Source: Streptomyces sp. NRRL F-6676 (GTDB lineage: Bacteria > Actinomycetota > Actinomycetes > Streptomycetales > Streptomycetaceae). From it: DNA of 64,000 bases. The DNA is taken from positions 434,001-498,000 of the forward strand of contig NZ_JOHS01000001.1 of NCBI RefSeq assembly GCF_000725625.1, read 5' to 3'. The notes below the pieces were generated by a model that searched no databases, was not told the origin of the DNA, and saw only the letters and a program-made list of their open reading frames with translations. Both the position numbers and the translations under genes were made by a program. Shown here in pieces: positions 3,236-31,213 of the stretch (position 1 is its first letter; each line of letters begins with the position of its first letter).

Positions 3236-3754
3236 ATGAGTGAGCCGTTGACCACCCCCGGCGAAGGTTTCCACCCCCATCTCGGCGACGCGGCGGGAGA
3301 GCCACCGGCCCCCCTGCGCACCCGACTTCACCACATCCGCGCCGACGCCCTCGACGGCGGCACCGCCCAGACCTCCGGGATGCGCAGGTTCGCCGCGATC
3401 AGCGGGAAGACGGTCGGCTCGGAGAAGCTGTGGATGGGCCAGACCCATGTCGCCCCCGCCACCTCCTCCTCCGACCACCACCACGGCGAGTCCGAGACCG
3501 CCATCCACATCGTCAGCGGCCACCCCGAGTTCGTCTTCGTCGACGACTCCGGTCCGCGGCCCGAAGAGGTACGGCTGCGCACGGCGCCCGGCGACTACAT
3601 CTTCGTCCCGCCGTTCGTCCCGCACCGCGAGGAGAACCCCGACCCCACCGAGGAGGCCGTGGTCGTCATCGCCCGCAGCACCCAGGAGGCGATCGTGGTC
3701 AACCTCCCGCACCTGTACGCGCTGGGACAGGAGGGCGACGACACGCGGCGGTGA
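3236..3754 (+). CDS. Cupin-domain protein
   Basis: This small (172-residue) single-cupin protein has metal-ligand motif 1 as SSDHHHGESETAIHIVSG and motif 2 as PGDYIFVPPFVPHREENP. Such cytoplasmic beta-barrels bind a metal and act as dioxygenases, isomerases or small-molecule sensors; the substrate cannot be read from the sequence. The ATG at 3236 is supported by the leaderless promoter immediately upstream. It diverges from the Rrf2/DsbA pair across about 140 bases and is probably part of the same response. Confidence 0.85.
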   Translation: MSEPLTTPGEGFHPHLGDAAGEPPAPLRTRLHHIRADALDGGTAQTSGMRRFAAISGKTVGSEKLWMGQTHVAPATSSSDHHHGESETAIHIVSGHPEFVFVDDSGPRPEEVRLRTAPGDYIFVPPFVPHREENPDPTEEAVVVIARSTQEAIVVNLPHLYALGQEGDDTRR

Positions 3755-7826: not shown

Positions 7827-8963
7827 TCAGGAGGCCGCCGGGGTGAAGAACTCGGCCATCCGCTCCAGGCCCCGCTCGCCGAACATCATCTCCAGGCTCG
7901 CGGCGGACTCGGCGGCGGACGCCTCGCTGCGCGGGAACATCGCCTCCTCGTAGGTGGTCAGGGCGGCCTCGGTGTCGCCGGGGTGGGCGGCGAGGGCCAG
8001 GGCGAGTTCGGCGCCGTCGAACAGGGCGAGGTTGGCGCCCTCGCCCGCGAACGGCGACATCAGATGGGCGGCGTCGCCGAGCAGCGTCACGCCCGGGACG
8101 CGCTCCCAGCGGTGCCCGACGGGCAGGGCGTGGATACGGCGCGGGGCGATCGTCTCCGCGTCGGCGACCAGGCCGCGCAGCCCCTCGTCCCAGCCCTCGA
8201 AGCGGGCGAGGACGGCGGCCTTGGCGGCGGCCGGGTCGGTGAAGTCGACCGTGTCCAGCCAGCCTTCGTCGGCCCGGAGCGCCGCGTAGACGTGGAGGCT
8301 GCCGTCGGTCTCCCGGTGTGCGAGGAACCCGCGTGCGTGCCCCAGGGCGAGGAAGAACCCGCCGCCGACGACCGCCGCGCTCCGTGGATGCCGGGTGTCG
8401 GCCTCGAACAGGTCGGTCTCGACGAAGGAGATGCCGGTGTAGGCGGGCCGGGCGTCCGAGAGGAGCGGCCGGATCCGGGACCAGGCGCCGTCCGCGCCGA
8501 TCAGGAGGTCGGTGGTGAGGGCCGAGCCGTCGGCGAACGTCACCTCGTGGCGCCCGCCGCCCAGCGGCCGGGCCGCGGTGACCTTGCGGCCCCAGTGGAC
8601 GGTGCCGTCGGGCAGCGAGCCGAGCAGCAGATCGCGCAGCTCGCCGCGGTCCACCTCCGGACGGTCACCGGACTCGTCGTCCGCCGCGGCCACGTGCACC
8701 GTGCCGTCGGGGCCGAGCAGACGCATGGCCTGACCGCCCTCGTGGACGAGCGCGCGGAAACCGTCGTACAGACCGGCCGCGTGCAGCGCCTGCTGCCCGT
8801 TCTCCGCGTGGATGTCGAGCATGCCGCCCTGCGTACGGGCCGCGGCCGACGCCTCCAGTTCGAAGATCGCCGACTTGATGCCGTGGACGTGCAGGACGCG
8901 GGCGGCGGTGAGGCCGCCGAGGCCGCCGCCGATGATCGCGACGGGGTAGTGCGGGGTGCTCAT
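7827..8963 (-). CDS. FAD-dependent monooxygenase, TetX-like
   Basis: This 378-residue single-domain flavin monooxygenase has the dinucleotide motif AIIGGGLGGLTAARVLHVHG at the N-terminus, a DLLIGADGAWSRIR middle motif and GDAAHLMSPFAGEGANLALFDG near the C-terminus. The pattern resembles TetX-type and other small hydroxylases that inactivate antibiotics or modify aromatics, but the sequence alone does not show tetracycline activity. ATG 8963 follows GGAGG. Tandem palindromic operators overlap the upstream region, and a TetR gene lies directly upstream on the same strand, so the pair is a likely substrate-inducible resistance or catabolic unit. Confidence 0.88.
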   Translation of the reverse strand: MSTPHYPVAIIGGGLGGLTAARVLHVHGIKSAIFELEASAAARTQGGMLDIHAENGQQALHAAGLYDGFRALVHEGGQAMRLLGPDGTVHVAAADDESGDRPEVDRGELRDLLLGSLPDGTVHWGRKVTAARPLGGGRHEVTFADGSALTTDLLIGADGAWSRIRPLLSDARPAYTGISFVETDLFEADTRHPRSAAVVGGGFFLALGHARGFLAHRETDGSLHVYAALRADEGWLDTVDFTDPAAAKAAVLARFEGWDEGLRGLVADAETIAPRRIHALPVGHRWERVPGVTLLGDAAHLMSPFAGEGANLALFDGAELALALAAHPGDTEAALTTYEEAMFPRSEASAAESAASLEMMFGERGLERMAEFFTPAAS

Positions 8964-9027
8964 CGGAACCTCCGGAGGGAAGGGGAAGCGCCGGGGGAGT
9001 GCCCATGGGCTCCGGCTCCCTCCGAGC

Positions 9028-9062
9028 GTAACGAACATGTTCGTCACGAACAAGTTCGTTAC
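9028..9062. promoter_or_regulatory. Tandem TetR operators upstream of the TetX-like gene
   Basis: Two adjacent palindromes, ACGAACATGTTCGT (9031-9044, perfect) and ACGAACAAGTTCGT (9046-9059), lie 15 bp apart and are flanked by GTAA/TTAC. The same core appears upstream of the neighbouring TetR gene at 9822-9833. Confidence 0.7.
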
Positions 9063-9111
9063 GGGCGTCGCTGAGCCCGAGCGGACCTCTGGAGGCGAGG
9101 GGCGCCCGGGC

Positions 9112-9807
9112 TCAGCCCTCCGCGCCCGGCACCGGGGTGTGCGTGATGCCGTTGACGAGGACGTCGAAGTTCCAGCGCATCCGGTCCTGCGCGGGGCCGT
9201 CGATCAGTGCGGGCATGTGCGCCGCGATCGACGGATACGTGGCCTCGCCCGCGGCACGGAACGCGCGCAGGGTCGCGTTCCAGTCCTCCTCGAAGGCGGG
9301 ATCGTCCGCGTGGGCCCCGTGCTCGGCGGCGCCTGCCGTCGCGGCCTGGAGCAGTACGTCCACCCCCCAGGCAACCTGGGCGCGCGCGGCACCGCTGCGC
9401 GAGAGGAGGTCGAGGATGCGCTCCACCAGGCGCAGATAGTTCTCGCCGCTCGGACGGGCGACGAGCGCGGACCGGGCGAGCTGCGGCTGCGCGAACAGCA
9501 CCAGGGTGTACGACGTCATGACCGCGCGGAGCTGCTCGCGCCAGTCGTCACCGCCCTCCCGCCCGGTCAGGTCGACCTCGCCGAGCAGGGCGTCCAGGAC
9601 CGCCGCGTGCAGCTCGGCGGTGTTGGCGACGTAGACGTACAGCGAGGCCGGACCGGTGTCCAGCTCCTGCGCCAGCCGGCGCATGGTGACCTTGTGGAGC
9701 CCCTCCGCCCGCATGATCCGCACGGCGGCGTCCACGATCGCGTGCCGCGACAGGGCGGGCTTCGCCGGACGCTCCCGGCGGCTGATCGGCTCTCGTCTCG
9801 CAGTCAT
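9112..9807 (-). CDS. TetR-family repressor of the TetX-like monooxygenase
   Basis: 231 residues. The N-terminal helix-turn-helix shows LSRHAIVDAAVRIMRAEGLH and MRRLAQELDTGPASLYVYVAN. The C-terminal half resembles the TetR_C domain that binds drugs such as tetracyclines. The palindromic core CGAACGCGTTCG lies just upstream of its ATG (9807), and near-identical sites lie before the downstream monooxygenase gene, so autoregulation and repression of that gene are likely. Confidence 0.9.
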   Translation of the reverse strand: MTARREPISRRERPAKPALSRHAIVDAAVRIMRAEGLHKVTMRRLAQELDTGPASLYVYVANTAELHAAVLDALLGEVDLTGREGGDDWREQLRAVMTSYTLVLFAQPQLARSALVARPSGENYLRLVERILDLLSRSGAARAQVAWGVDVLLQAATAGAAEHGAHADDPAFEEDWNATLRAFRAAGEATYPSIAAHMPALIDGPAQDRMRWNFDVLVNGITHTPVPGAEG

Positions 9808-9817
9808 GGCGGCGATC

Positions 9818-9836
9818 GTAACGAACGCGTTCGCCA
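9818..9836. promoter_or_regulatory. Autoregulatory TetR operator
   Basis: Perfect 12-bp palindrome CGAACGCGTTCG (9822-9833) preceded by GTAA, matching the half-sites in front of the TetX-like gene. Confidence 0.6.
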
Positions 9837-9930
9837 GATCGGGGATCAGCCGGAGCCCGGCCGGAGCCTCCGATTCCACCGGCGCCTTCGGCCTCACGCA
9901 CCGAGAAGGATGCTTAACAGTCAGTGCAGT

Positions 9931-9945
9931 TGGAAACGATTATCA
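9931..9945 (+). promoter_or_regulatory. Zur-type box upstream of the PLP/sulfur operon
   Basis: TGGAAACGATTATCA agrees with the S. coelicolor Zur consensus (TGAAAATGATTTTCA-like) at 12 of 15 positions. It overlaps a probable -10 (GATTAT, 9938-9943), with a weak -35 (TTAACA, 9914-9919) 18 bases upstream, so zinc-loaded Zur would repress. An identical 15-mer, inverted, lies at 14097-14111. Confidence 0.65.
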
Positions 9946-10028
9946 CGAACTGATCATCGGGACGGCGCCGTCCGGCACCGGGGTGCTGCCGCGGTGACCG
10001 ACTGACGCCCGACACGGGGAGGTACCAC

Positions 10029-11534
10029 GTGAAGGACGCGCCCTTGTATCTGAGGCCGCGGGTCGACCCACCGCTCGCCTCATTGCTCGGGAACGCGCCG
10101 TTGTTGCACTCCTTGGCCGACGCCCTGGGATCGCCGCTGAACGTGCTGATCCCGGAGGCCGTCGCCGCGAACGCGGAGCGGTTCCGCTCCGTCTACCGGC
10201 GGCACCACCTGGCCGGGAGGGTGTACTTCGCCCACAAGGCGAATCGTTCCAGCGCCCTGGTGCGCAGACTCGCGGCCTGCGACCCGGCGGCCGTCGGCAT
10301 CGACGTGGCCTCCCTGGAGGAACTCCGCCACGCACTGAGCTGCGGCTTCACCGGGGACCGGGTGATGGCGACCGGCCCCAAGGATGCCGAGTTCCTGTGG
10401 CTGGCCGCCCGGGCGGGCGCGACGGTGAACGTCGACTCGGTCGGCGAGCTGGACCGACTGGCCGGTCTCGTACGGAAGTACGCACTGGCCAGGACCCAGG
10501 TGCTGGTGCGGCTGTCCGGCTTCGAGTCGGACCCCGCACCCGGCGGCGCCGGCACCCGGCTGCTCTCGCGCCGCAGCCGGTTCGGCACCCCGGTCGCCGA
10601 GGCCGGAGGGCTCTGGACGGCACTGGAACGGCACGCGGACAGCGTCGAACTCGTCGGCCTCGCCTACCACTTGGACACCACCGGCCTGGAGGAGAAGGGC
10701 CGTGCCCTGGAGCGCTGTGTGCTGCTCATGGACGACTGCCGCGCCCGGGGCCTCACGCCACGCGCGGTGGACATCGGCGGCGGCTTCGGCGTCGGCTACG
10801 TCGAGGACGCCGGGGAGTGGGAACGCTGGACGACCGCGCTGAGCGAGGCCGTCCTCGGCACCCGCCCGCCGCTGGCCTGGCGCGGCCACGGCTACGGCCT
10901 GCGCAACGAGGCCGGCACGGTCCGCGGCACCGCCGCCCTCTACCCCGCCCACCGGCCCACCGCGGGCCCCGGCTACCTGGACGCACTCCTGACCCGCCCG
11001 GCGCCCGTCCTCGGCCGGTCCCCGGCCACCCTGCTCCTGGAACACCTCCACGACCTGTACGTCGAACCCGGCCGCGCCCTCGTCGACCAGTGCGGACTGT
11101 CGCTGGCGCGGGTCCAGGAGGTGCGGCCCCTGGGCGACGAGCCCGACCGGTATCTGGTGCGGCTCGGCATGAACGCCGGTGACGTCAGCCTGGAGGAGCA
11201 CGGGGTCCTCGTCGACCCCGTCCTGCTGCCGCGCGGCGGCCCGCCCGAGGAGGCGGCGGACGGGGCGCCGGTCGGCGTCCACCTGGTGGGCAACCTCTGC
11301 CTGGAGGCCGATCTGATCACCCGCCGTCTGGTGTTCCTGCCCCGGCTGCCCCGGCCGGGGGACCTGCTGGCCTTCGTCAACACCGCCGGGTACGTCATGG
11401 ACTTCCACGCCCACCACGCGCAAATGCAGCCGTCGGCGCGGACGGTGGCGGTCACGGAGGAGGACGGGACCTGGCACTGGTGCCCGGACGAGAACTACTG
11501 GCCGCTCACACACCCGCAGGGAGTGCCGTCATGA
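10029..11534 (+). CDS. PLP-dependent decarboxylase, DAP/ornithine-decarboxylase fold type III (Y4yA/SbnH-like)
   Basis: 501 residues. An alanine-racemase-type TIM barrel with the PLP lysine at 70 (YFAHKAN) is followed by a C-terminal beta domain. Recognisable elements are VDSVGELDRLAGL, GLAYHLDTTG, VDIGGGFGVGY (phosphate-binding glycines), EPGRALVDQCG and the dimer active-site motif GNLCLEADLI. The group includes diaminopimelate decarboxylase and siderophore decarboxylases such as SbnH. This member is longer and lacks an obvious primary role. GTG 10029 follows GGGGAGG. It is the first gene of a coupled three-gene operon behind a Zur-type box. I infer decarboxylation of an amino-acid-derived intermediate made by the next genes; the true substrate is unknown. 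Confidence 0.85.
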   Translation: MKDAPLYLRPRVDPPLASLLGNAPLLHSLADALGSPLNVLIPEAVAANAERFRSVYRRHHLAGRVYFAHKANRSSALVRRLAACDPAAVGIDVASLEELRHALSCGFTGDRVMATGPKDAEFLWLAARAGATVNVDSVGELDRLAGLVRKYALARTQVLVRLSGFESDPAPGGAGTRLLSRRSRFGTPVAEAGGLWTALERHADSVELVGLAYHLDTTGLEEKGRALERCVLLMDDCRARGLTPRAVDIGGGFGVGYVEDAGEWERWTTALSEAVLGTRPPLAWRGHGYGLRNEAGTVRGTAALYPAHRPTAGPGYLDALLTRPAPVLGRSPATLLLEHLHDLYVEPGRALVDQCGLSLARVQEVRPLGDEPDRYLVRLGMNAGDVSLEEHGVLVDPVLLPRGGPPEEAADGAPVGVHLVGNLCLEADLITRRLVFLPRLPRPGDLLAFVNTAGYVMDFHAHHAQMQPSARTVAVTEEDGTWHWCPDENYWPLTHPQGVPS

Positions 11535-12868
11535 GGTACGACAGCATCACGGAAGCCATCGGCAACACACCGCTCGTCCGCATCGACCCGGCGGTGCACG
11601 GTCTGCGCCACATCGACCTCTACGCCAAGCTGGAGATGCTCAACCCCTTCGGCTCCGTCAAGGACCGCCCGGCCTGGCACATGGCACGCCCCCATCTGGA
11701 GGGGGCGGCGGGCGGCGACGGCACGGTCGTGGAACTCTCCAGCGGCAACACGGCCAAGGCGCTCGCCCTGCTGGCCGGCATGCACGGGCTGAAGTTCAAG
11801 AGCGTCACCAACCGGATGCGCGTGCCCGAGATCAAGGAACTGCTCCTGCTGCTCGGCGCCGAGATCGAGGAACTGCCCGGCCGGAGCGAGTGTCTGGACC
11901 CCACCGACACCGACGACCCGCTCACCCGCTTCCACCAGGCGCTCTCCGGGCCCGGCAGCACCTATCTCCACACCGACCAGTACTTCAACCCGCGCAACGT
12001 CGAGGCACACGCGGCCGGCACCGGGCCCGAGATCGTCAAGGACCTCGACGGACGGGCCCCGGACTGGTTCGTGGCCTGCGTCGGCACGGCCGGCTCCTCC
12101 ACGGGCGTCGCCCGCGTCCTGCGCGAACACGACGCCGGCGTACGGGTGCTCGGACTGGTCGCCGACAAGTCCGACTTCATCCCCGGCATCCGCACCATCG
12201 ACGAGGTCCACCAGGTCGGCCTCTTCGACCCCGCCACCTACGACCGGCTCGCACCGGTCACCTCGCAGCAGGCCATTGACGGCATGGTCACCCTGATCCG
12301 CCGCTGCGGACTGCTCTCCGGACCCACCGGCGGCGCCGCCTACCACGGGGCCGTCCGCGAACTGGCCGCCGCCGACGCCGAACTGGAGGGCACCGGCCGC
12401 CGCCAGACCGCCGTGTTCATCGTGTGCGACCGGGCCGAGAGCTACCTCAGCTACGTACGGCAGCGCCGCCCGGAACTGCTCGGCAGGGCCCGGCGCGGAC
12501 ACTCCCTGGCCTCGCTCGGCGACGAGGACGTCCACGCACAGGGCCGCGCGGTCGACGTCGACGGCGCACGGCGCTGGATCGCGGAGGGCGAACCCCGCCC
12601 GATGGTCGTCGACCTGCGCGGCCCGCACGCCTACGCCGCCCTGCACATCGAGGGCTCGGTCAACATCGTCGACGAACTCTTCGAGGAACTCGTGCGCGGC
12701 GGACTGCCGTTCAGCAAGTGCACCCCGGTGCTGCTCGCGTGTCCGGTGGGGGAGAGGTCGCTGCGCTATGCCGCGCTGCTGTCCCGCATGGGCCACCCGG
12801 ACGTCAGGAGCCTGGCGGGCGGCATCGTCGCCTGGCGGGACGCCGGCGCACCGCTGGTGAGGGAGTGA
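11531..12868 (+). CDS. Cysteine synthase-like PLP enzyme fused to a rhodanese domain
   Basis: 445 residues in two domains. Residues about 1-320 are a fold type II PLP enzyme like CysK/SbnA: IGNTPLVRI, NPFGSVKDRPA with PLP lysine 44, SSGNTAKALA, and phosphate loop GTAGSSTGVARVL. Residues about 340-445 are a rhodanese-like domain ending with the active loop CPVGERS, whose Cys404 is intact and can carry a persulfide. The ATG overlaps the previous stop (ATGA), so it is translationally coupled. The fusion suggests that sulfur delivered by a desulfurase (next gene) is incorporated by the synthase half into an activated serine or similar acceptor. Domain identity is visible; the reaction is inferred. 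Confidence 0.85.
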   Translation: MRYDSITEAIGNTPLVRIDPAVHGLRHIDLYAKLEMLNPFGSVKDRPAWHMARPHLEGAAGGDGTVVELSSGNTAKALALLAGMHGLKFKSVTNRMRVPEIKELLLLLGAEIEELPGRSECLDPTDTDDPLTRFHQALSGPGSTYLHTDQYFNPRNVEAHAAGTGPEIVKDLDGRAPDWFVACVGTAGSSTGVARVLREHDAGVRVLGLVADKSDFIPGIRTIDEVHQVGLFDPATYDRLAPVTSQQAIDGMVTLIRRCGLLSGPTGGAAYHGAVRELAAADAELEGTGRRQTAVFIVCDRAESYLSYVRQRRPELLGRARRGHSLASLGDEDVHAQGRAVDVDGARRWIAEGEPRPMVVDLRGPHAYAALHIEGSVNIVDELFEELVRGGLPFSKCTPVLLACPVGERSLRYAALLSRMGHPDVRSLAGGIVAWRDAGAPLVRE

Positions 12869-12871
12869 GCC

Positions 12872-14080
12872 GTGGCCGAGGAGACGACCGCCGAAGAACG
12901 CGCCTGGCAGGAGAAGCTGAGGACACAGTTCCCCCTCGTCACCGCGCACCCCGACCTGGCGTATCTGGACAGCGCGGCCACCTCGCAGAAACCGCGGGCG
13001 GTCCTGGACGCCGTGGAGACCTACCTCACCACCACCAACGCCAACGCGGGCCGCGGCACCTACCCCTGGGCCAACCGCACCACGGAACTGGTGGAGCGGA
13101 CCAGGGAGCGGGTCAAGGAGTTCCTGGGGGACCCCCGACCGGGGCGCTCCGCCGTCCACTTCACCAGCGGCACCACCGAGGGACTGCGCACCGTCGCCCG
13201 CGACTGGCTCGTGCCGTACCTGGAGGACGGCGACGAGATCCTCGTTCCGTTCTCGGACCACCGGGCCAACCTGGACCCCTGGCTCGAAGCGCGGCGGCTG
13301 CTGGCCGAGCGCGGTGTCGAGGTGCGGGTGCGGGCGCTGCCCGTCCAGGAGTCCTCCGGCGACTACGACCACCGCGCCCTGGCCGGGATGGTCGGCCCCC
13401 GGACCCGGTTCGTGGCGGCGACGCACGTCCATCACGTCTACGGCGGCGACATGAACGTGCACCGGCTGCGCGCCGCCGTCGGCCCGGACGTGCCGATCTG
13501 CCTGGACGCCGCGCAGAGCGTCGGCCACCTCCCCGTCCGGGTCGGCGACCCGGACCTCGACGTCGACTTCGTCGTCTTCTCCGGGCACAAGGCGCTGGCC
13601 CTGCCCGGCACCGGAGCGGTGTGGGCGCGCAACACCAGGGGGCCGGTGTTACGGCCCGGCGGCTGGCAGGGCACCCCCAACACGGTGGGCATCGTCTCGC
13701 TCCTGGCGGCGCTCGACTGGCTGACGGAGGCCGACCCCGCCCGCGTCGCCCGCCATGTCACCCGGCTGGCCACCCGCCTGACCGACCGCCTGGGGCGACT
13801 GGAGCCGTACGACATCCTCGGCTGCCCCGCGAGCCTCACCGCGGACAGCGCGCTCCCCACGGCCCAGCGGCGGCACGGCATCGTCACCTTCCGCCACCGT
13901 GACATCCCCTCCGACGACCTGGGCTTCATCCTCTACAGCCACGGTTTCATGGTCCGGGCCGACAACCTCTGCCAGGCGGGCGCCGACGAGGACGGCGGAT
14001 CCGTACGGGTCAGCCTGCACGTCTACAACACCGACGAGGAGATCGACCGCCTGCTGACGGTGCTGGCCTCACTGGAGTAG
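12872..14080 (+). CDS. Class V aminotransferase, SufS/NifS-like cysteine desulfurase homologue
   Basis: 402 residues. The start is SufS-like (FPLVTAHPDLAYLDSAATSQ KP). PLP lysine 240 sits in SGHKALALPGTG, and the C-terminal segment FMVRADNLCQAG places Cys367 at the SufS active-cysteine position, followed by VRVSLHVYNTDEEIDRLL. It therefore looks able to form a persulfide from cysteine. It differs from housekeeping SufS in the HVHHVYGGDMNV segment. Leucine 260 is encoded by TTA (13649-13651), the rare codon read by bldA tRNA, which ties the gene to developmental or secondary metabolism. GTG 12872 lies 3 bases after the previous stop. Its likely sulfur acceptor is the rhodanese domain of the preceding protein. 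Confidence 0.85.
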   Translation: MAEETTAEERAWQEKLRTQFPLVTAHPDLAYLDSAATSQKPRAVLDAVETYLTTTNANAGRGTYPWANRTTELVERTRERVKEFLGDPRPGRSAVHFTSGTTEGLRTVARDWLVPYLEDGDEILVPFSDHRANLDPWLEARRLLAERGVEVRVRALPVQESSGDYDHRALAGMVGPRTRFVAATHVHHVYGGDMNVHRLRAAVGPDVPICLDAAQSVGHLPVRVGDPDLDVDFVVFSGHKALALPGTGAVWARNTRGPVLRPGGWQGTPNTVGIVSLLAALDWLTEADPARVARHVTRLATRLTDRLGRLEPYDILGCPASLTADSALPTAQRRHGIVTFRHRDIPSDDLGFILYSHGFMVRADNLCQAGADEDGGSVRVSLHVYNTDEEIDRLLTVLASLE

Positions 14081-14096
14081 CGCAACAAAGAGTTAT

Positions 14097-14111
14097 TGAT
14101 AATCGTTTCCA
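14097..14111 (-). promoter_or_regulatory. Second Zur-type box, upstream of the methyltransferase gene
   Basis: TGATAATCGTTTCCA is the exact reverse complement of the 15-mer at 9931-9945. It lies just upstream of a TAGATT -10 box (14116-14121) for the methyltransferase gene. Exact identity of two 15-mers 4.2 kb apart indicates one regulator for both units. Confidence 0.65.
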
Positions 14112-14168
14112 CCTGTAGATTGTGCGGTGACCACAACAGGTGAGAGACGGATGAGGTGACAGGGCCGG

Positions 14169-14936
14169 ATGGGTGTGAGCATGGGAGCGGCCGGTATGTG
14201 GGTCGAGCGCTGGGAACGGCAGCAGCGGCGCTACGCCGTGGACCGCGAGGAGCGGTTCGCGGTCATCGCCGACGTCACGGAACATCTCTGCGCCGGCGGC
14301 GGCCGGCCGCTCCTGCTGGACCTGGGGTGCGGCCCCGGCTCGCTGTCCGTCCGGCTCGCCCGCCGGCTGCCGGACGCCGAGATCGTCGCCGTCGACATGG
14401 ACCCCGTCCTGCTGGAACTGGGCCGCACCCATCACGCCGACGCCGCCCGGTACGTGGACGCGGTGATCGGCGAGGACGGCTGGACGGACGCGCTGGCACT
14501 GGACCGCCCCGTGGACGTCGCCGTCTCGACGACCGCGCTGCACTACCTCCCCGCCCCCGTCCTGGGGCGCACGTACCGCGCCCTCGCCGCCCTGCTCCGC
14601 CCCGGTGGCGCGCTGGTCAACGGCGACCACTTCCCGCCGGAGGAGTCGCCCTGCGCGGACCTGACCGCCCATGTGGGGCGCCGCCGGGCCGAGCGGACCG
14701 GTGCCCACGGTCACGAGGACGAGGACTGGGAGTCGTGGTGGCGGGCCGCGGCCGCCGACCCCGAACTGACCGACCTGTTCGAACAGCGCGAGAAGACCCG
14801 CCCGGCCTCGGGCGACGGCAACCAGCACCTCTCCGTGGCCCGCCACACCGAACTGCTCCACCGGGCGGGCTTCCGCCACGTCACCCCGGTGTGGCAGGCC
14901 GGGGACAGCCGCGTACTGGTGGCGCTGAAGGGCTGA
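14169..14936 (+). CDS. Class I SAM-dependent methyltransferase
   Basis: 255 residues. The SAM-binding motif is LLLDLGCGPGSLSVRLARRL, then the acidic loop EIVAVDMDP and the motif IV-like VDVAVSTTALHYLPAP. It methylates a small molecule; no quinone- or rRNA-specific signature is seen. ATG 14169 is used, but ATG 14181 is possible. The gene has its own promoter with a Zur-type box identical to that of the upstream PLP operon and is therefore the probable tailoring enzyme of the same pathway. A hairpin terminator follows at 14940-14971. Confidence 0.87.
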   Translation: MGVSMGAAGMWVERWERQQRRYAVDREERFAVIADVTEHLCAGGGRPLLLDLGCGPGSLSVRLARRLPDAEIVAVDMDPVLLELGRTHHADAARYVDAVIGEDGWTDALALDRPVDVAVSTTALHYLPAPVLGRTYRALAALLRPGGALVNGDHFPPEESPCADLTAHVGRRRAERTGAHGHEDEDWESWWRAAAADPELTDLFEQREKTRPASGDGNQHLSVARHTELLHRAGFRHVTPVWQAGDSRVLVALKG

Positions 14937-14978: not shown

Positions 14979-15605
14979 TCACAGCGCGAGGCTCATCAGG
15001 ATCTCGTCGCGGTCGTCCCCGGGCGCCAGACGCAGCGCCCCCGGCCACCGGCCGACCTCCGTCCATCCGGCCTTGCGGTAGAAGTGCTCCAGTCCCAGGC
15101 CCGCCCGCGCCGACAGCTTCAGACGCTCCAGTCCCATGTCCTCCCGCGCGACATGGCGGACACGCCCCATCAGCGCGGCACCGACGCCCCGGCCCCGCAG
15201 ACCGACCCGCGTCTGCACATGGTTGACCACGCCGCAGTGCGCCTCCAACGGGTGCGCCTCCCGGCGGAGCACCAGCCACCCCGCGAGTGCGCCGCCGAGC
15301 GTGGCCGTGAGCAGTCTGCCGCGCGCGGGCGCCAGGCTCTCCACGAGCCGGTCCACGGCGGGGCGGAGGGCGGCCGGTGTCACGGGCGGCGGCGGGCAGT
15401 CCGGCGGAACGACCGCCCCGCCGGCATCGACCACCGCCGCCCAGCAGTCCGCCAGCTCCTCACGCAGGGAGCCGTCCACGTCGGAGGGCCGGGTGAACTG
15501 GGTGAGGGACAGACGGACGGGGAGGGGAACGGGGGCAGGGGCCGGGGCGGCGGGCGTGGTGGGGCTGCCGGGCGCGCCGGGGTTGGTGGCGTCGTAGGAG
15601 TGCAC
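14979..15605 (-). CDS. GNAT-family N-acetyltransferase
   Basis: About 208 residues. The acetyl-CoA motif is RVGLRGRGVGAALMGRVRHVA, followed by LKLSARAGLGLEHFYRKAGW. The proline/alanine-rich N-terminus before PVRLSLTQFTRPSD is variable, so the start is uncertain: GTG 15605 is preferred because codons further upstream (to GTG 15656) look non-coding. The acceptor is unknown. It converges on the Zur-boxed methyltransferase gene, but nothing links it to that pathway. Confidence 0.78.
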   Translation of the reverse strand: MHSYDATNPGAPGSPTTPAAPAPAPVPLPVRLSLTQFTRPSDVDGSLREELADCWAAVVDAGGAVVPPDCPPPPVTPAALRPAVDRLVESLAPARGRLLTATLGGALAGWLVLRREAHPLEAHCGVVNHVQTRVGLRGRGVGAALMGRVRHVAREDMGLERLKLSARAGLGLEHFYRKAGWTEVGRWPGALRLAPGDDRDEILMSLAL

Positions 15606-15860
15606 GGTCGGAAGACTGCCCCAGCGGCGCCCGCTCACCCCACTGAGCCCGCTCACTCACTGACGCCCGCTCACCCCCCTGACGCCCAGGATCCCACCGC
15701 GCGGTGTCCGTGGCGTTGTCGTGGACAAGCCCCGCGGACCTGCCGCCGCGGGCGGAGGGCCGGCCCGGGGAAGGCGAGCCGAACTGCTCTCGCGAGGCCG
15801 ACACCCTCCCGCGCCGCGCAGGGGCGCTCCCCGGCCTCCCGCTCCCGCGCATCCGACCCC

Positions 15861-28952: not shown

Positions 28953-30266
28953 ATGTCAGCATCGGGCAGGACCAGCCGTGCGGCGGGGCCGCTCGCCCGG
29001 CGCCGCTTCCTCGCCGGGGTGGCCGCCGGTGCGGCCGCCCTGACGGCCGGGGGCTGCGCACGGGGAACGAGCACGTCCGCACAGCCGGGAACCACGAGCA
29101 TCTCCAACGACAACGCCACCTGGGACGACGGCTACCGCGCGGCCGGCCAGGAGCTGAAGAAGATCACCGGGTACTCGCTCAGGCCGCTGTCGAACCCGTC
29201 GGTCACCTCCTACCAGCAGGTCGTGCAGATGACCTTGCAGACCTCGAAATCCTCCGACCTCGTCAAATGGGCCTCCGGCTACCAGCTCAAACGGCTGGCC
29301 CGGGCCGGCGGGCTCACCGACCTGGGCGGGGTCTGGAGGAGCTACGCGGGCAAGGGCTGGGTCCGCCGCGCGTCCCGGGACGCCTTCTCCTACCGCGGCA
29401 CGGTGTACGGCATCCCGCTGTACGAGTCGTACTACGTGCTCTTCTACAGCAAACCGGTGTTCAAGAGGCTGGGCCTGTCCGCCCCGGCGAGCTGGGAGCA
29501 GCTCCTGCACTGCGCCGAGGTCCTCAAACGCAACCGGATCACTCCGTTCCTCGCCAGCCAGGTGGGCGGCTGGCCCGCCATCGAGTGGTTCCAGGAACTG
29601 GTCAGCAAGACCGATCCGCACTTCTACCAGCGGCTGGTGGCCGGACAGGCCTCCTACACCGACGAGCCGGCCCGCCGGGCGATGGACCTCTGGCAGGACT
29701 TCATGCGCAAGGGCTGGATGACACCGCCCGACTTCGACCAGGCACGCGGCCCCGGCGCCCTCAAGGAGGGCACGCTGGGCATGTTCCTGCACGGCACCTG
29801 GCAGGCCGCCGGCATGGCCGCGGCGGGCATGAAACCGGGCACCGACTACGGCGCCTTCCTCCTGCCGACCGTGCGCCCCACCACCGCGAAGAGTGTGATC
29901 ACCGAATCGGGCGTCTTCGTCGTGCCCAGCCGCGCTTCCTCGCACCGGGCGGCCATGCGGAACGTCGCGGCCTGGCTCGACCCGTCCGTGCAGCGGGTGT
30001 GGAGCGACTTCCTCCAGGACAGCTCCGCCAACCCCACGGTGCGCGCCGGCAACCCGGTGGTGGCGGCGCTCCAGCGGGACATCGCCCGCGACCACCGGCT
30101 GCCGCTGGTGCGCTACTGGGAGGCCAGTCCGCCCAGCCTCATCCAGGGCAACACCGACGACCTCGGCGGCTTCATGGCCGGGCAGACCTCTCCGGCCACG
30201 ACCCTGCGTCGGATGCAGGAGCGCGCACACGACGAATGGGCGGCCTGGAAGCGAGACGAAGCATGA
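28953..30266 (+). CDS. Carbohydrate ABC transporter substrate-binding lipoprotein (family 1)
   Basis: 437 residues. A Tat-type twin arginine (ARRRFLAGVAAGAAALTAGGC) runs into a lipobox with lipidated Cys. Mature-domain segments GTVYGIPLYESYYVLFYSKPVFKRLGL and MFLHGTWQAAGM are typical of oligosaccharide-binding MalE/family 1 proteins. It delivers a sugar, here probably manno-oligosaccharides released by GH76 or Endo H, to the permeases encoded next. The ATG at 28953 has a GAAGG-like site nearby. It is the first gene of a five-gene co-directional run. Confidence 0.92.
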   Translation: MSASGRTSRAAGPLARRRFLAGVAAGAAALTAGGCARGTSTSAQPGTTSISNDNATWDDGYRAAGQELKKITGYSLRPLSNPSVTSYQQVVQMTLQTSKSSDLVKWASGYQLKRLARAGGLTDLGGVWRSYAGKGWVRRASRDAFSYRGTVYGIPLYESYYVLFYSKPVFKRLGLSAPASWEQLLHCAEVLKRNRITPFLASQVGGWPAIEWFQELVSKTDPHFYQRLVAGQASYTDEPARRAMDLWQDFMRKGWMTPPDFDQARGPGALKEGTLGMFLHGTWQAAGMAAAGMKPGTDYGAFLLPTVRPTTAKSVITESGVFVVPSRASSHRAAMRNVAAWLDPSVQRVWSDFLQDSSANPTVRAGNPVVAALQRDIARDHRLPLVRYWEASPPSLIQGNTDDLGGFMAGQTSPATTLRRMQERAHDEWAAWKRDEA

Positions 30267-31213
30267 GCACCTCCCTCACCGACCGACGCCCGCCGACCGC
30301 GGCCGGCGGACCGGCCGCACCCCGGCGCGCGACGCCCCCCGGACACTCCCGGCACACCCTGCGCGAACGGCTGGCGGCCGGCGGGTTCATGGCCCCGGCC
30401 GTCGTCCTGGTCGCCCTGTTCCTGCTGGCCCCCTTCGTCTGGACGGTCTACCGCAGCTTCTTCAACGACTCGCGGACCTCACCGTTCAGCTGGTTCGACA
30501 ACTACGCCCTGTTCGCCTCCGACCCGGCCCTGGCCCGCTCCGTCCAGAACACCCTGCTCTGGGTGGTGGGCACGGTCGCCCTCCCGTTCGTCCTCGGCCT
30601 CGCCATCGCCTGCATGACCAACGCCGGCCGTTTCTCCCGCCTCGCCCGGCTCTGCGTCGTCCTGCCCTACGCGCTCTCGGGCTCCGCGGTGGCGGTGGTG
30701 TGGAACTTCATGCTCACCACCGACGGCGCCGTCAACCAGGTCCTGACCACCCTCGGACTGGACTCACTCGCGCAGGGGTGGCTGCTGACCTGGCCAGGCA
30801 ACACCCTGGTGATGATCCTCGCCAACGCCTGGCAGGCCACCGGCGTGGCCGTCATCCTCTTCCTCGTCGGATTGCAGTCCATCCCGCCCGAGACCCTGGA
30901 GGCCGGCGCCCTGGACGGCGCGACCGGCTGGCAGCAGTTCCGTCACATCGTCCTGCCCCAGCTCCGCCCGGTGTCGATCATCGTGATCGGGATGAGCCTG
31001 GTCAACGGACTCAAGTCGTTCGACCTGATCTGGGTGCTCACCCAGGGCGGCCCCGGGCGGGCCACCGAGACACTCGCGGTGTCCATGTACAACGAGACCT
31101 TCCTGGAACTGCGGCCCGGCGCGGGAGCGGCGATCGCGGTCGTCCTCACCGTGATCGTGCTGGCGGCCTCCTGGCTCTATCTGCGCCGCCAGCTCGACGT
31201 GAAAGGCGTGTGA
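30263..31213 (+). CDS. Sugar ABC transporter permease (MalF type)
   Basis: 316 residues with six predicted membrane helices after a proline-rich cytoplasmic N-terminus. The EAA loop that contacts the ATPase is ETLEAGALDGATGWQQFRHI with VLPQLRP. Overlaps the binding-protein gene by ATGA and is followed after 3 bases by the second permease gene. No ATPase gene is present; streptomycete sugar importers generally share the MsiK ATPase encoded elsewhere. Confidence 0.93.
   Translation: MSTSLTDRRPPTAAGGPAAPRRATPPGHSRHTLRERLAAGGFMAPAVVLVALFLLAPFVWTVYRSFFNDSRTSPFSWFDNYALFASDPALARSVQNTLLWVVGTVALPFVLGLAIACMTNAGRFSRLARLCVVLPYALSGSAVAVVWNFMLTTDGAVNQVLTTLGLDSLAQGWLLTWPGNTLVMILANAWQATGVAVILFLVGLQSIPPETLEAGALDGATGWQQFRHIVLPQLRPVSIIVIGMSLVNGLKSFDLIWVLTQGGPGRATETLAVSMYNETFLELRPGAGAAIAVVLTVIVLAASWLYLRRQLDVKGV

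Follow-up and report, generated by a model that had tools for sequence, protein, structure and literature searches.

The genome of Streptomyces sp. NRRL F-6676 carries four neighboring genes, three for PLP enzymes and one for a methyltransferase (MT), with the same 15-mer before the first and, inverted, before the last. The locus raises the question of whether these genes form one pathway under zinc control, and what such a pathway would make. The window analyzed here is a stretch of 64,000 nucleotides, and the features discussed are collected in Table 1.

Table 1. Genes and putative control sites of the quartet in the window
Feature	Position	Strand	Basis
Y4yA-like fold-type-III PLP decarboxylase, 501 aa	10029..11534	+	profile search
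CysK/CysM-like PLP domain with C-terminal rhodanese domain, 445 aa	11531..12868	+	profile search
SufS-like class-V PLP enzyme, 402 aa	12872..14080	+	profile search
Class I SAM-dependent methyltransferase (MT), 255 aa	14169..14936	+	profile search
GNAT acetyltransferase, possible accessory	14979..15656	-	Pfam
Zur-type 7-1-7 box TGGAAACGATTATCA, operon promoter	9931..9945	+	exact match; matrix score
Zur-type box, MT promoter, same 15-mer inverted	14097..14111	-	exact match
Sigma70-like promoter TTAACA-18-GATTAT, PLP operon	9914..9943	+	consensus match only, 9/12 positions; shuffles mean 0.0

The PLP operon consists of three genes (10029-14080, + strand), and the MT gene comes after it. The decarboxylase stop overlaps the start of the CysK-rhodanese fusion as ATGA (ATG at 11531), and a gap of 3 nt separates the fusion from the SufS-like gene (suf). 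Open reading frames and profile searches agree with the initial annotation, which had described a PLP decarboxylase, a CysK-rhodanese fusion, a SufS-like enzyme and an MT; its statement that NRPS, IucA/C and exporter genes are absent nearby also holds for the window, where a Pfam scan of eight neighbor genes found none of them. None of the four quartet proteins reaches the cut-off of the NCBIfam models listed for them. One scan of genome contigs gave 174 related loci, and the best 80 were retained (by title, 79 Streptomyces and one Actinacidiphila). A GNAT homologue occurs in 30 of these 80 best loci (tblastn), every one within L022-L063.

The residues expected of active enzymes are conserved among the relatives. 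The decarboxylase matches Orn_Arg_deC_N (1.4e-21), with a diaminopimelate decarboxylase (5x7m) as its top PDB match, and an alignment of 80 sequences shows the AHKAN lysine and the CLE.D motif to be conserved. Its kinship with Y4yA is seen in plasmid records, of which 84 of 85 span 80% or more of the query; where these homologues are annotated, many bear the name Y4yA, and others are called alanine racemase or unnamed. The fusion contains PALP (8e-52) and Rhodanese (1.7e-14) domains, its top PDB match being 3dwg, named cysteine synthase B; K44 is found in 81 of 81 sequences, and the rhodanese loop CPVGE.S is conserved. The SufS-like protein matches Aminotran_5 (9.3e-66) and, as its top PDB match, SufS (1.2e-45), and falls below the NCBIfam SufS cut-off (232.8 vs 475.1 bits). 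The residues of its predicted chemistry, Cys367 (persulfide), Lys240 (PLP) and His130 (active site), are each present in 78 of 78 sequences. The folds nearest to the MT are the CysG/BelI carboxylate O-methyltransferases and MM_2633; the His-His-Asp metal site of CysG/BelI is not kept in the MT, where Tyr126 follows the invariant His125.

It is also evident that the four genes are inherited together. Matches to the decarboxylase, the fusion and the SufS-like protein lie side by side in 80/80 best loci, and the MT is present in 79, at a distance of 2.8 kb from suf in L064; these counts include partial genes for the decarboxylase (L047), the SufS-like protein (L054, L059 and L097) and the MT (L022 and L073). 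Among 295 Streptomyces genomes, the fusion is found in 68, the MT in 74 and both in 65 (P = 2e-51, Fisher's exact test, uncorrected for kinship or physical linkage), and three genomes (G411, G426 and G604) bear the fusion without the MT. Across the phylum, the fusion occurs in 5 of 396 genomes. Nine genomes have the MT only, and the cases examined among them (all except G566 and G630) do not support the MT as a free-standing Zur gene. G246 has two MTs, each close to the end of a different contig, one of them beside suf; the quartet of G496 has decayed, the MT of G485 is broken and adjoins znu-type genes, and four further genomes carry distant MT paralogues without a box (L187-L190).

The 15-mer TGGAAACGATTATCA has two exact copies in the whole 8.12-Mb genome, at the operon and MT promoters, exactly as first reported. 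No further site with up to three mismatches exists in the window; shuffled windows are expected to hold 0.12 such sites, and two were reached in 2 of 100 shuffles. The published Zur motif of S. coelicolor is the 7-1-7 palindrome tGaNNatSatNNtCa (PMC5472717), with which TGGAAACGATTATCA agrees at 9 of 11 specified positions. A looser consensus, which was written with TGGAAACGATTATCA in mind, matches the genome at 22 sites with up to two mismatches, compared with 2 for the reversed control. Gene identities are given for a subset of these 22 sites and were named from reading the sequence; those of znuA and of the ribosomal and COG0523 genes are independent of how the consensus was written. Two sites precede znuA, one of them a single base off TGGAAACGATTATCA; a weaker site is found close to ribosomal paralogues and a COG0523 gene, another close to a second COG0523 gene, and two overlapping sites fall between an AMP ligase and a coelibactin-type NRPS. 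Of the genome's four Fur-family genes, one is on the znuA strand, some 1.8 kb past that gene. In a matrix built from six other sites (five from the looser consensus and the published zitB site), TGGAAACGATTATCA scores 21.5, within the range of the six themselves (19.6-23.8). The near-identical znuA site, this score and the zinc-gene neighbors agree with the initial reading of the boxes as Zur-type, and TGGAAACGATTATCA is, judged by its sequence, a credible Zur box. The -10 element of the sigma70-like operon promoter falls inside the first box, and a promoter scan found no sigma70-like promoter at the second.

The two boxes differ greatly in their conservation. Taking a matrix score above the 99% shuffle level as a pass, the MT-promoter box passes in 79/79 of the best loci, mostly 53-68 bp from the start, with 0, 1, 2 and 3 mismatches to the consensus in 37, 16, 24 and 2 loci, respectively. 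By contrast, no more than 9 of 77 loci have an operon-promoter box that passes: in L022-L024 it lies within 100 bp, and in six others at 149-299 bp, where it possibly serves neighbor genes instead. L022-L024, which are the three closest loci with upstream sequence to read, keep the operon box within one mismatch (the operon promoter of L047 falls off its contig). The half site TGGAAACGACTA is kept in 27 of the 77 operon promoters besides L022, 20 of these being TGGAAACGACTACTC, and the remaining ones have no recognizable box near the start. Exact TGGAAACGATTATCA copies occur in two of 101 Streptomyces genomes at three sites, two of which are those at this quartet; the third (G426:C202:32388) is about 1.2 kb beyond the CysK-rhodanese gene of G426 (29830-31164), in the place expected of an MT promoter. 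The full operon box is a feature of this strain and its nearest kin and not of most strains. Because the MT box is so much more widespread than the operon box, control by zinc seems to be the general case for the MT but confined to some strains for the PLP operon, and the initial claim that zinc controls the three-gene operon is not supported as a general rule. Homologous clusters lacking a conserved Zur-type box had been named beforehand as evidence against zinc control. For the MT this objection fails among the 80 best loci, but there are exceptions in two distant variants described below (L129 and L130), which show no good box, and in G246, outside the 80-locus set, where the MT adjoining suf (L184) has no box above score; the second MT of G246 (L185) has a box.

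Many quartets sit among zinc genes. Zinc-homeostasis genes occur within 10 kb on either side of a large minority of the best loci, 33 of 80, and in 1 of 20 controls, a comparison that is biased in favor of the loci since the markers were drawn from the loci themselves; the figure rises to 41 of 80 when a His-rich protein is counted. The markers were Zur-like Fur proteins, COG0523 GTPases, ribosomal L28/S14/S18 paralogues, zinc substrate-binding proteins, ZnuB-type permeases and AztD-like proteins, most of them identified by reading the sequences (Pfam confirmed FUR and ArsR, for one member each), and the controls were 20 evenly spaced 20-kb stretches of three Streptomyces genomes. In L085, the quartet, a His-rich gene, ArsR, Fur, a zinc-binding protein and an ATPase follow one another in a row. 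The initial 24.2 kb of the window lack any such marker, as do 47 of the 80 best loci. Searches of the 80 best loci with IucA, ornithine cyclodeaminase, opine dehydrogenase, MATE, MFS and FecCD queries gave no or one match each, and no conserved exporter or siderophore-type importer was found across them. L064 and L069 show PKS/NRPS-like ORFs, and the quartet of genome G539 has a coelibactin-like NRPS at a distance of about 10 kb.

More distant forms vary further. In L128 (genome G050), the trio shows 57-67% identity and lies near a Fur-family gene and an MFS transporter; a Zur box without mismatch is found at 3404, and the MT of this locus is a different one, with a box next to its start. In L129 and L130, the counterparts of the trio (36-46% identity) are accompanied by a protein bearing a C-terminal heavy-metal-associated domain (MTCKHC), which had no match in the plasmid search, and no good Zur box was found.

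Taken together, the MT boxes and the gene neighborhoods suggest that the quartet serves as a metabolic module for zinc starvation; Zur-type control of the MT and the place of the quartet in the zinc response are well supported at the level of sequence. Its product is probably a small sulfur- or amine-containing molecule. The explanation we favor, at somewhat less than an even chance, is a Zur-repressed biosynthetic module that makes a small S/N zinc ligand during zinc starvation. The sequences show the boxes, the gene unit, the kept active-site residues and, for a large minority of loci, the zinc genes nearby; from these we infer the following scheme, from Zur binding through each catalytic step and the order of the steps to the product and its role in zinc. 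Zur with zinc bound would occupy the 7-1-7 box of the MT promoter and, in this strain and close relatives, that at the operon -10, and both promoters would be released when zinc is lost. Sulfur would be drawn from cysteine or a conjugate of it by the SufS-like enzyme, whose conserved Cys would hand it on to the rhodanese Cys in the fusion. The CysK-like domain next to this rhodanese would convert O-phospho- or O-acetylserine into aminoacrylate, to which it would attach the sulfur or a different nucleophile. Decarboxylation by the Y4yA-like enzyme would leave an aminoethyl unit, and methylation by the MT, perhaps at a carboxylate, would follow. The resulting small S/N ligand would serve to buffer or scavenge zinc, and could be a sulfur zincophore. 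The transporters or IucA/C genes of several Y4yA/CysK clusters elsewhere and the make-up of L128 speak for this scheme. It counts against the scheme that a CysK domain making plain cysteine from cysteine sulfur would run a futile cycle; so do the scarcity of the operon box, the missing boxes of L184, L129 and L130, the absence of zinc markers near this quartet and in 47 of the 80 best loci, and the want of a conserved exporter or siderophore-type importer in those 80. A stronger version, which we consider doubtful, is that the quartet represents a new class of zinc-ligand pathway without an NRPS or NIS synthetase, in which a persulfide relay, a fused beta-replacement enzyme, decarboxylation and methylation yield an aminoethyl-sulfur zincophore or buffer under Zur.

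Four other explanations deserve consideration. The strongest, though an unlikely one, is a zinc-sparing sulfur supply, in which the SufS-like enzyme and the rhodanese would replace a zinc-dependent relay (SufS-SufU, or CysM with its carrier and JAMM) and sustain cysteine or Fe-S synthesis. SufS His342 (in IHPHD) is used with the zinc protein SufU, and CysM depends for its supply on a carrier and a zinc JAMM protease. The IHPHD His is retained in the SufS of this genome, which is followed by a SufU-like ORF (read by eye), whereas only 1 of the 78 SufS-like proteins has His at that position; the fusion of a rhodanese to CysK and the cysteine synthase B match of the CysK domain point the same way. 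However, SufE-type SufS enzymes likewise lack that His, the conserved decarboxylase and MT are left unexplained, and presence is patchy (68 of 295 genomes).

A little less probable is a sulfur-free aminopolycarboxylate or diamine zincophore following SbnA/EDDS logic, for which CysK would join a Ser-derived aminoacrylate to the amine of an amino acid, Y4yA would decarboxylate, and the SufS-like enzyme would act as a lyase or epimerase. Elsewhere, Y4yA and CysK do occur with a cyclodeaminase and MATE, or with an opine dehydrogenase and IucA/C, and a loop of about 20 aa found in the SufS of this genome is missing from the SufS-like protein, which might let in a larger substrate. Nevertheless, cyclodeaminase and opine dehydrogenase have no match in the 80 loci, and MATE and MFS have single matches; moreover, the persulfide-type Cys is invariant and the rhodanese loop conserved.

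We give a similarly low probability to the MT alone being the true Zur target, with the adjoining PLP operon linked to it, independent of zinc in most strains, and boxed only in one clade. The contrast between the two promoters, with only three operon boxes within 100 bp, speaks for this explanation, but the trio and the MT are co-inherited (65 genomes with both), the trio shares the zinc islands, and both boxes here are identical 15-mers. Finally, that TGGAAACGATTATCA is the site of another regulator or a chance repeat is very improbable: the fit to the published motif is incomplete and the genome has four Fur-family genes, but the znuA site one base off, the zinc neighbors and the low number of sites expected per window argue against it.

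If the favored explanation of a Zur-repressed ligand pathway is right, the quartet would add to the zinc-starvation response a branch not described before, one found in about a quarter of the sampled Streptomyces genomes and often in zinc islands. It would predict a metabolite open to testing, require no more than four genes and tie a metallophore-type Y4yA/CysK core to sulfur transfer. Either outcome, a small ligand under zinc control or a sulfur route that spares zinc, would bear on actinomycete life at low zinc.

Among known systems, staphyloferrin B offers a resembling logic, in which SbnA and SbnH combine a CysK-like enzyme with a PLP decarboxylase. The analogy to SbnA/SbnH drawn in the initial annotation stands for the fold and for the neighborhood of Y4yA and CysK; it does not extend to the SbnA equivalog cut-off, which the fusion misses (136.2 vs 349.95 bits), or to the rest of the system, because SbnB-like genes and IucA/C-type synthetases are each found in 0 of 80 quartet loci. 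The coelibactin locus of S. coelicolor is under Zur control (PMC6103462). The present genome has a coelibactin-like NRPS elsewhere, named from reading the sequence, with a Zur-like box, whereas the quartet has no NRPS. A role of the quartet as a replacement for coelibactin is not supported, as no depletion is seen: strict NRPS homologues co-occur with the quartet in 4 of 9 genomes (P = 0.22), and looser ones in 16 of 30, an enrichment (P = 1.3e-4). Production of [S,S]-EDDS is not known to need a large NRPS. In Amycolatopsis japonicum this compound is a metallophore under Zur control (PMC6103462). The portion of PMC7676072 consulted holds no enzyme assignments usable for the quartet. Among the matches listed from the open-licence PMC literature, the quartet was not recognized from titles and the starts of abstracts, although it may be in print elsewhere, and the phrase 'Y4yA family' was not found.

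The same pairing, a decarboxylase beside a CysK-like gene, is seen in the plasmid modules of Y4yA and cysteine-synthase-family genes in rhizobia, Agrobacterium, Rhodococcus, M. avium, Nitratireductor and Sulfitobacter, whose Y4yA decarboxylases share about 30-35% identity with the present one across most of its length. These modules variously include ornithine cyclodeaminase, opine dehydrogenase, IucA/C, MATE/MFS and importers; exporters, importers or IucA/C are present in five of seven annotated Y4yA/CysK clusters and not clear in the other two. In contrast to the plasmid modules, the Streptomyces locus combines the pair with a rhodanese fusion, a SufS-like enzyme, an MT and putative Zur boxes.

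Beside Zur-like boxes stands a MinD/CooC-like P-loop ATPase, encoded with a small conserved protein, and at the divergent arrangement of L192 two strong boxes are present. This is possibly a zinc-linked ATPase so far undescribed. In two distant variant clusters (L129 and L130) the trio encloses an HMA-domain protein, of which the N-terminal region is of unknown kind; a search of plasmids with the L129 protein returned zero matches. A small His-rich repeat protein, possibly binding zinc, recurs near the quartet (L085, 5093-5392; L096, 13439-13822; and 11 further loci).

Features near the trio, the quartet or Zur-like boxes
Feature	Location	Strand	Remark
HMA-domain protein inside variant-cluster trio	L129 5025-6311	-	C-terminal HMA metal-binding domain
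HMA-domain protein inside variant-cluster trio	L130 12063-13421	-	C-terminal HMA metal-binding domain
MinD/CooC-like P-loop ATPase and small conserved protein	L005 522-1490	-	adjoins Zur-like box
MinD/CooC-like P-loop ATPase and small conserved protein	L192 770-1750	-	divergent from zinc-binding-protein gene
Second class I methyltransferase family, member	L128 1562-2350	-	Zur-like box (2320) upstream
FAD monooxygenase and TetR gene	window 7827-9897		

A second class I methyltransferase family occurs near the quartet in 5 of the best 80 of 174 related loci (L024, L045, L058, L069 and L094), with a further member in the variant cluster L128. Upstream of the quartet, ABC-exporter genes are found in L039 (35-8386), L027, L032, L034, L036, L040, L045 and L048, and are accompanied in L027, L032, L039, L040 and L048 by a gene that reads as YcaO-like from its sequence; these genes may represent a neighbouring RiPP locus. 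In the window itself, the FAD monooxygenase/TetR pair has the look of an ordinary oxidoreductase under TetR control; its inverted repeats, ACGAAC/GTTCGT, lie around 9032-9064.

Away from the quartet, the same genome carries a coelibactin-like NRPS/AMP-ligase divergent pair (L004, G000:C18:93243-96257), at which Zur-like boxes overlap. Homologues with at least 80% identity are present in 9 of 295 Streptomyces genomes, the source genome included. In genome G539 a coelibactin-like NRPS and the quartet share one contig, about 10 kb apart (G539:C295:646-2058 and 12097-13428).
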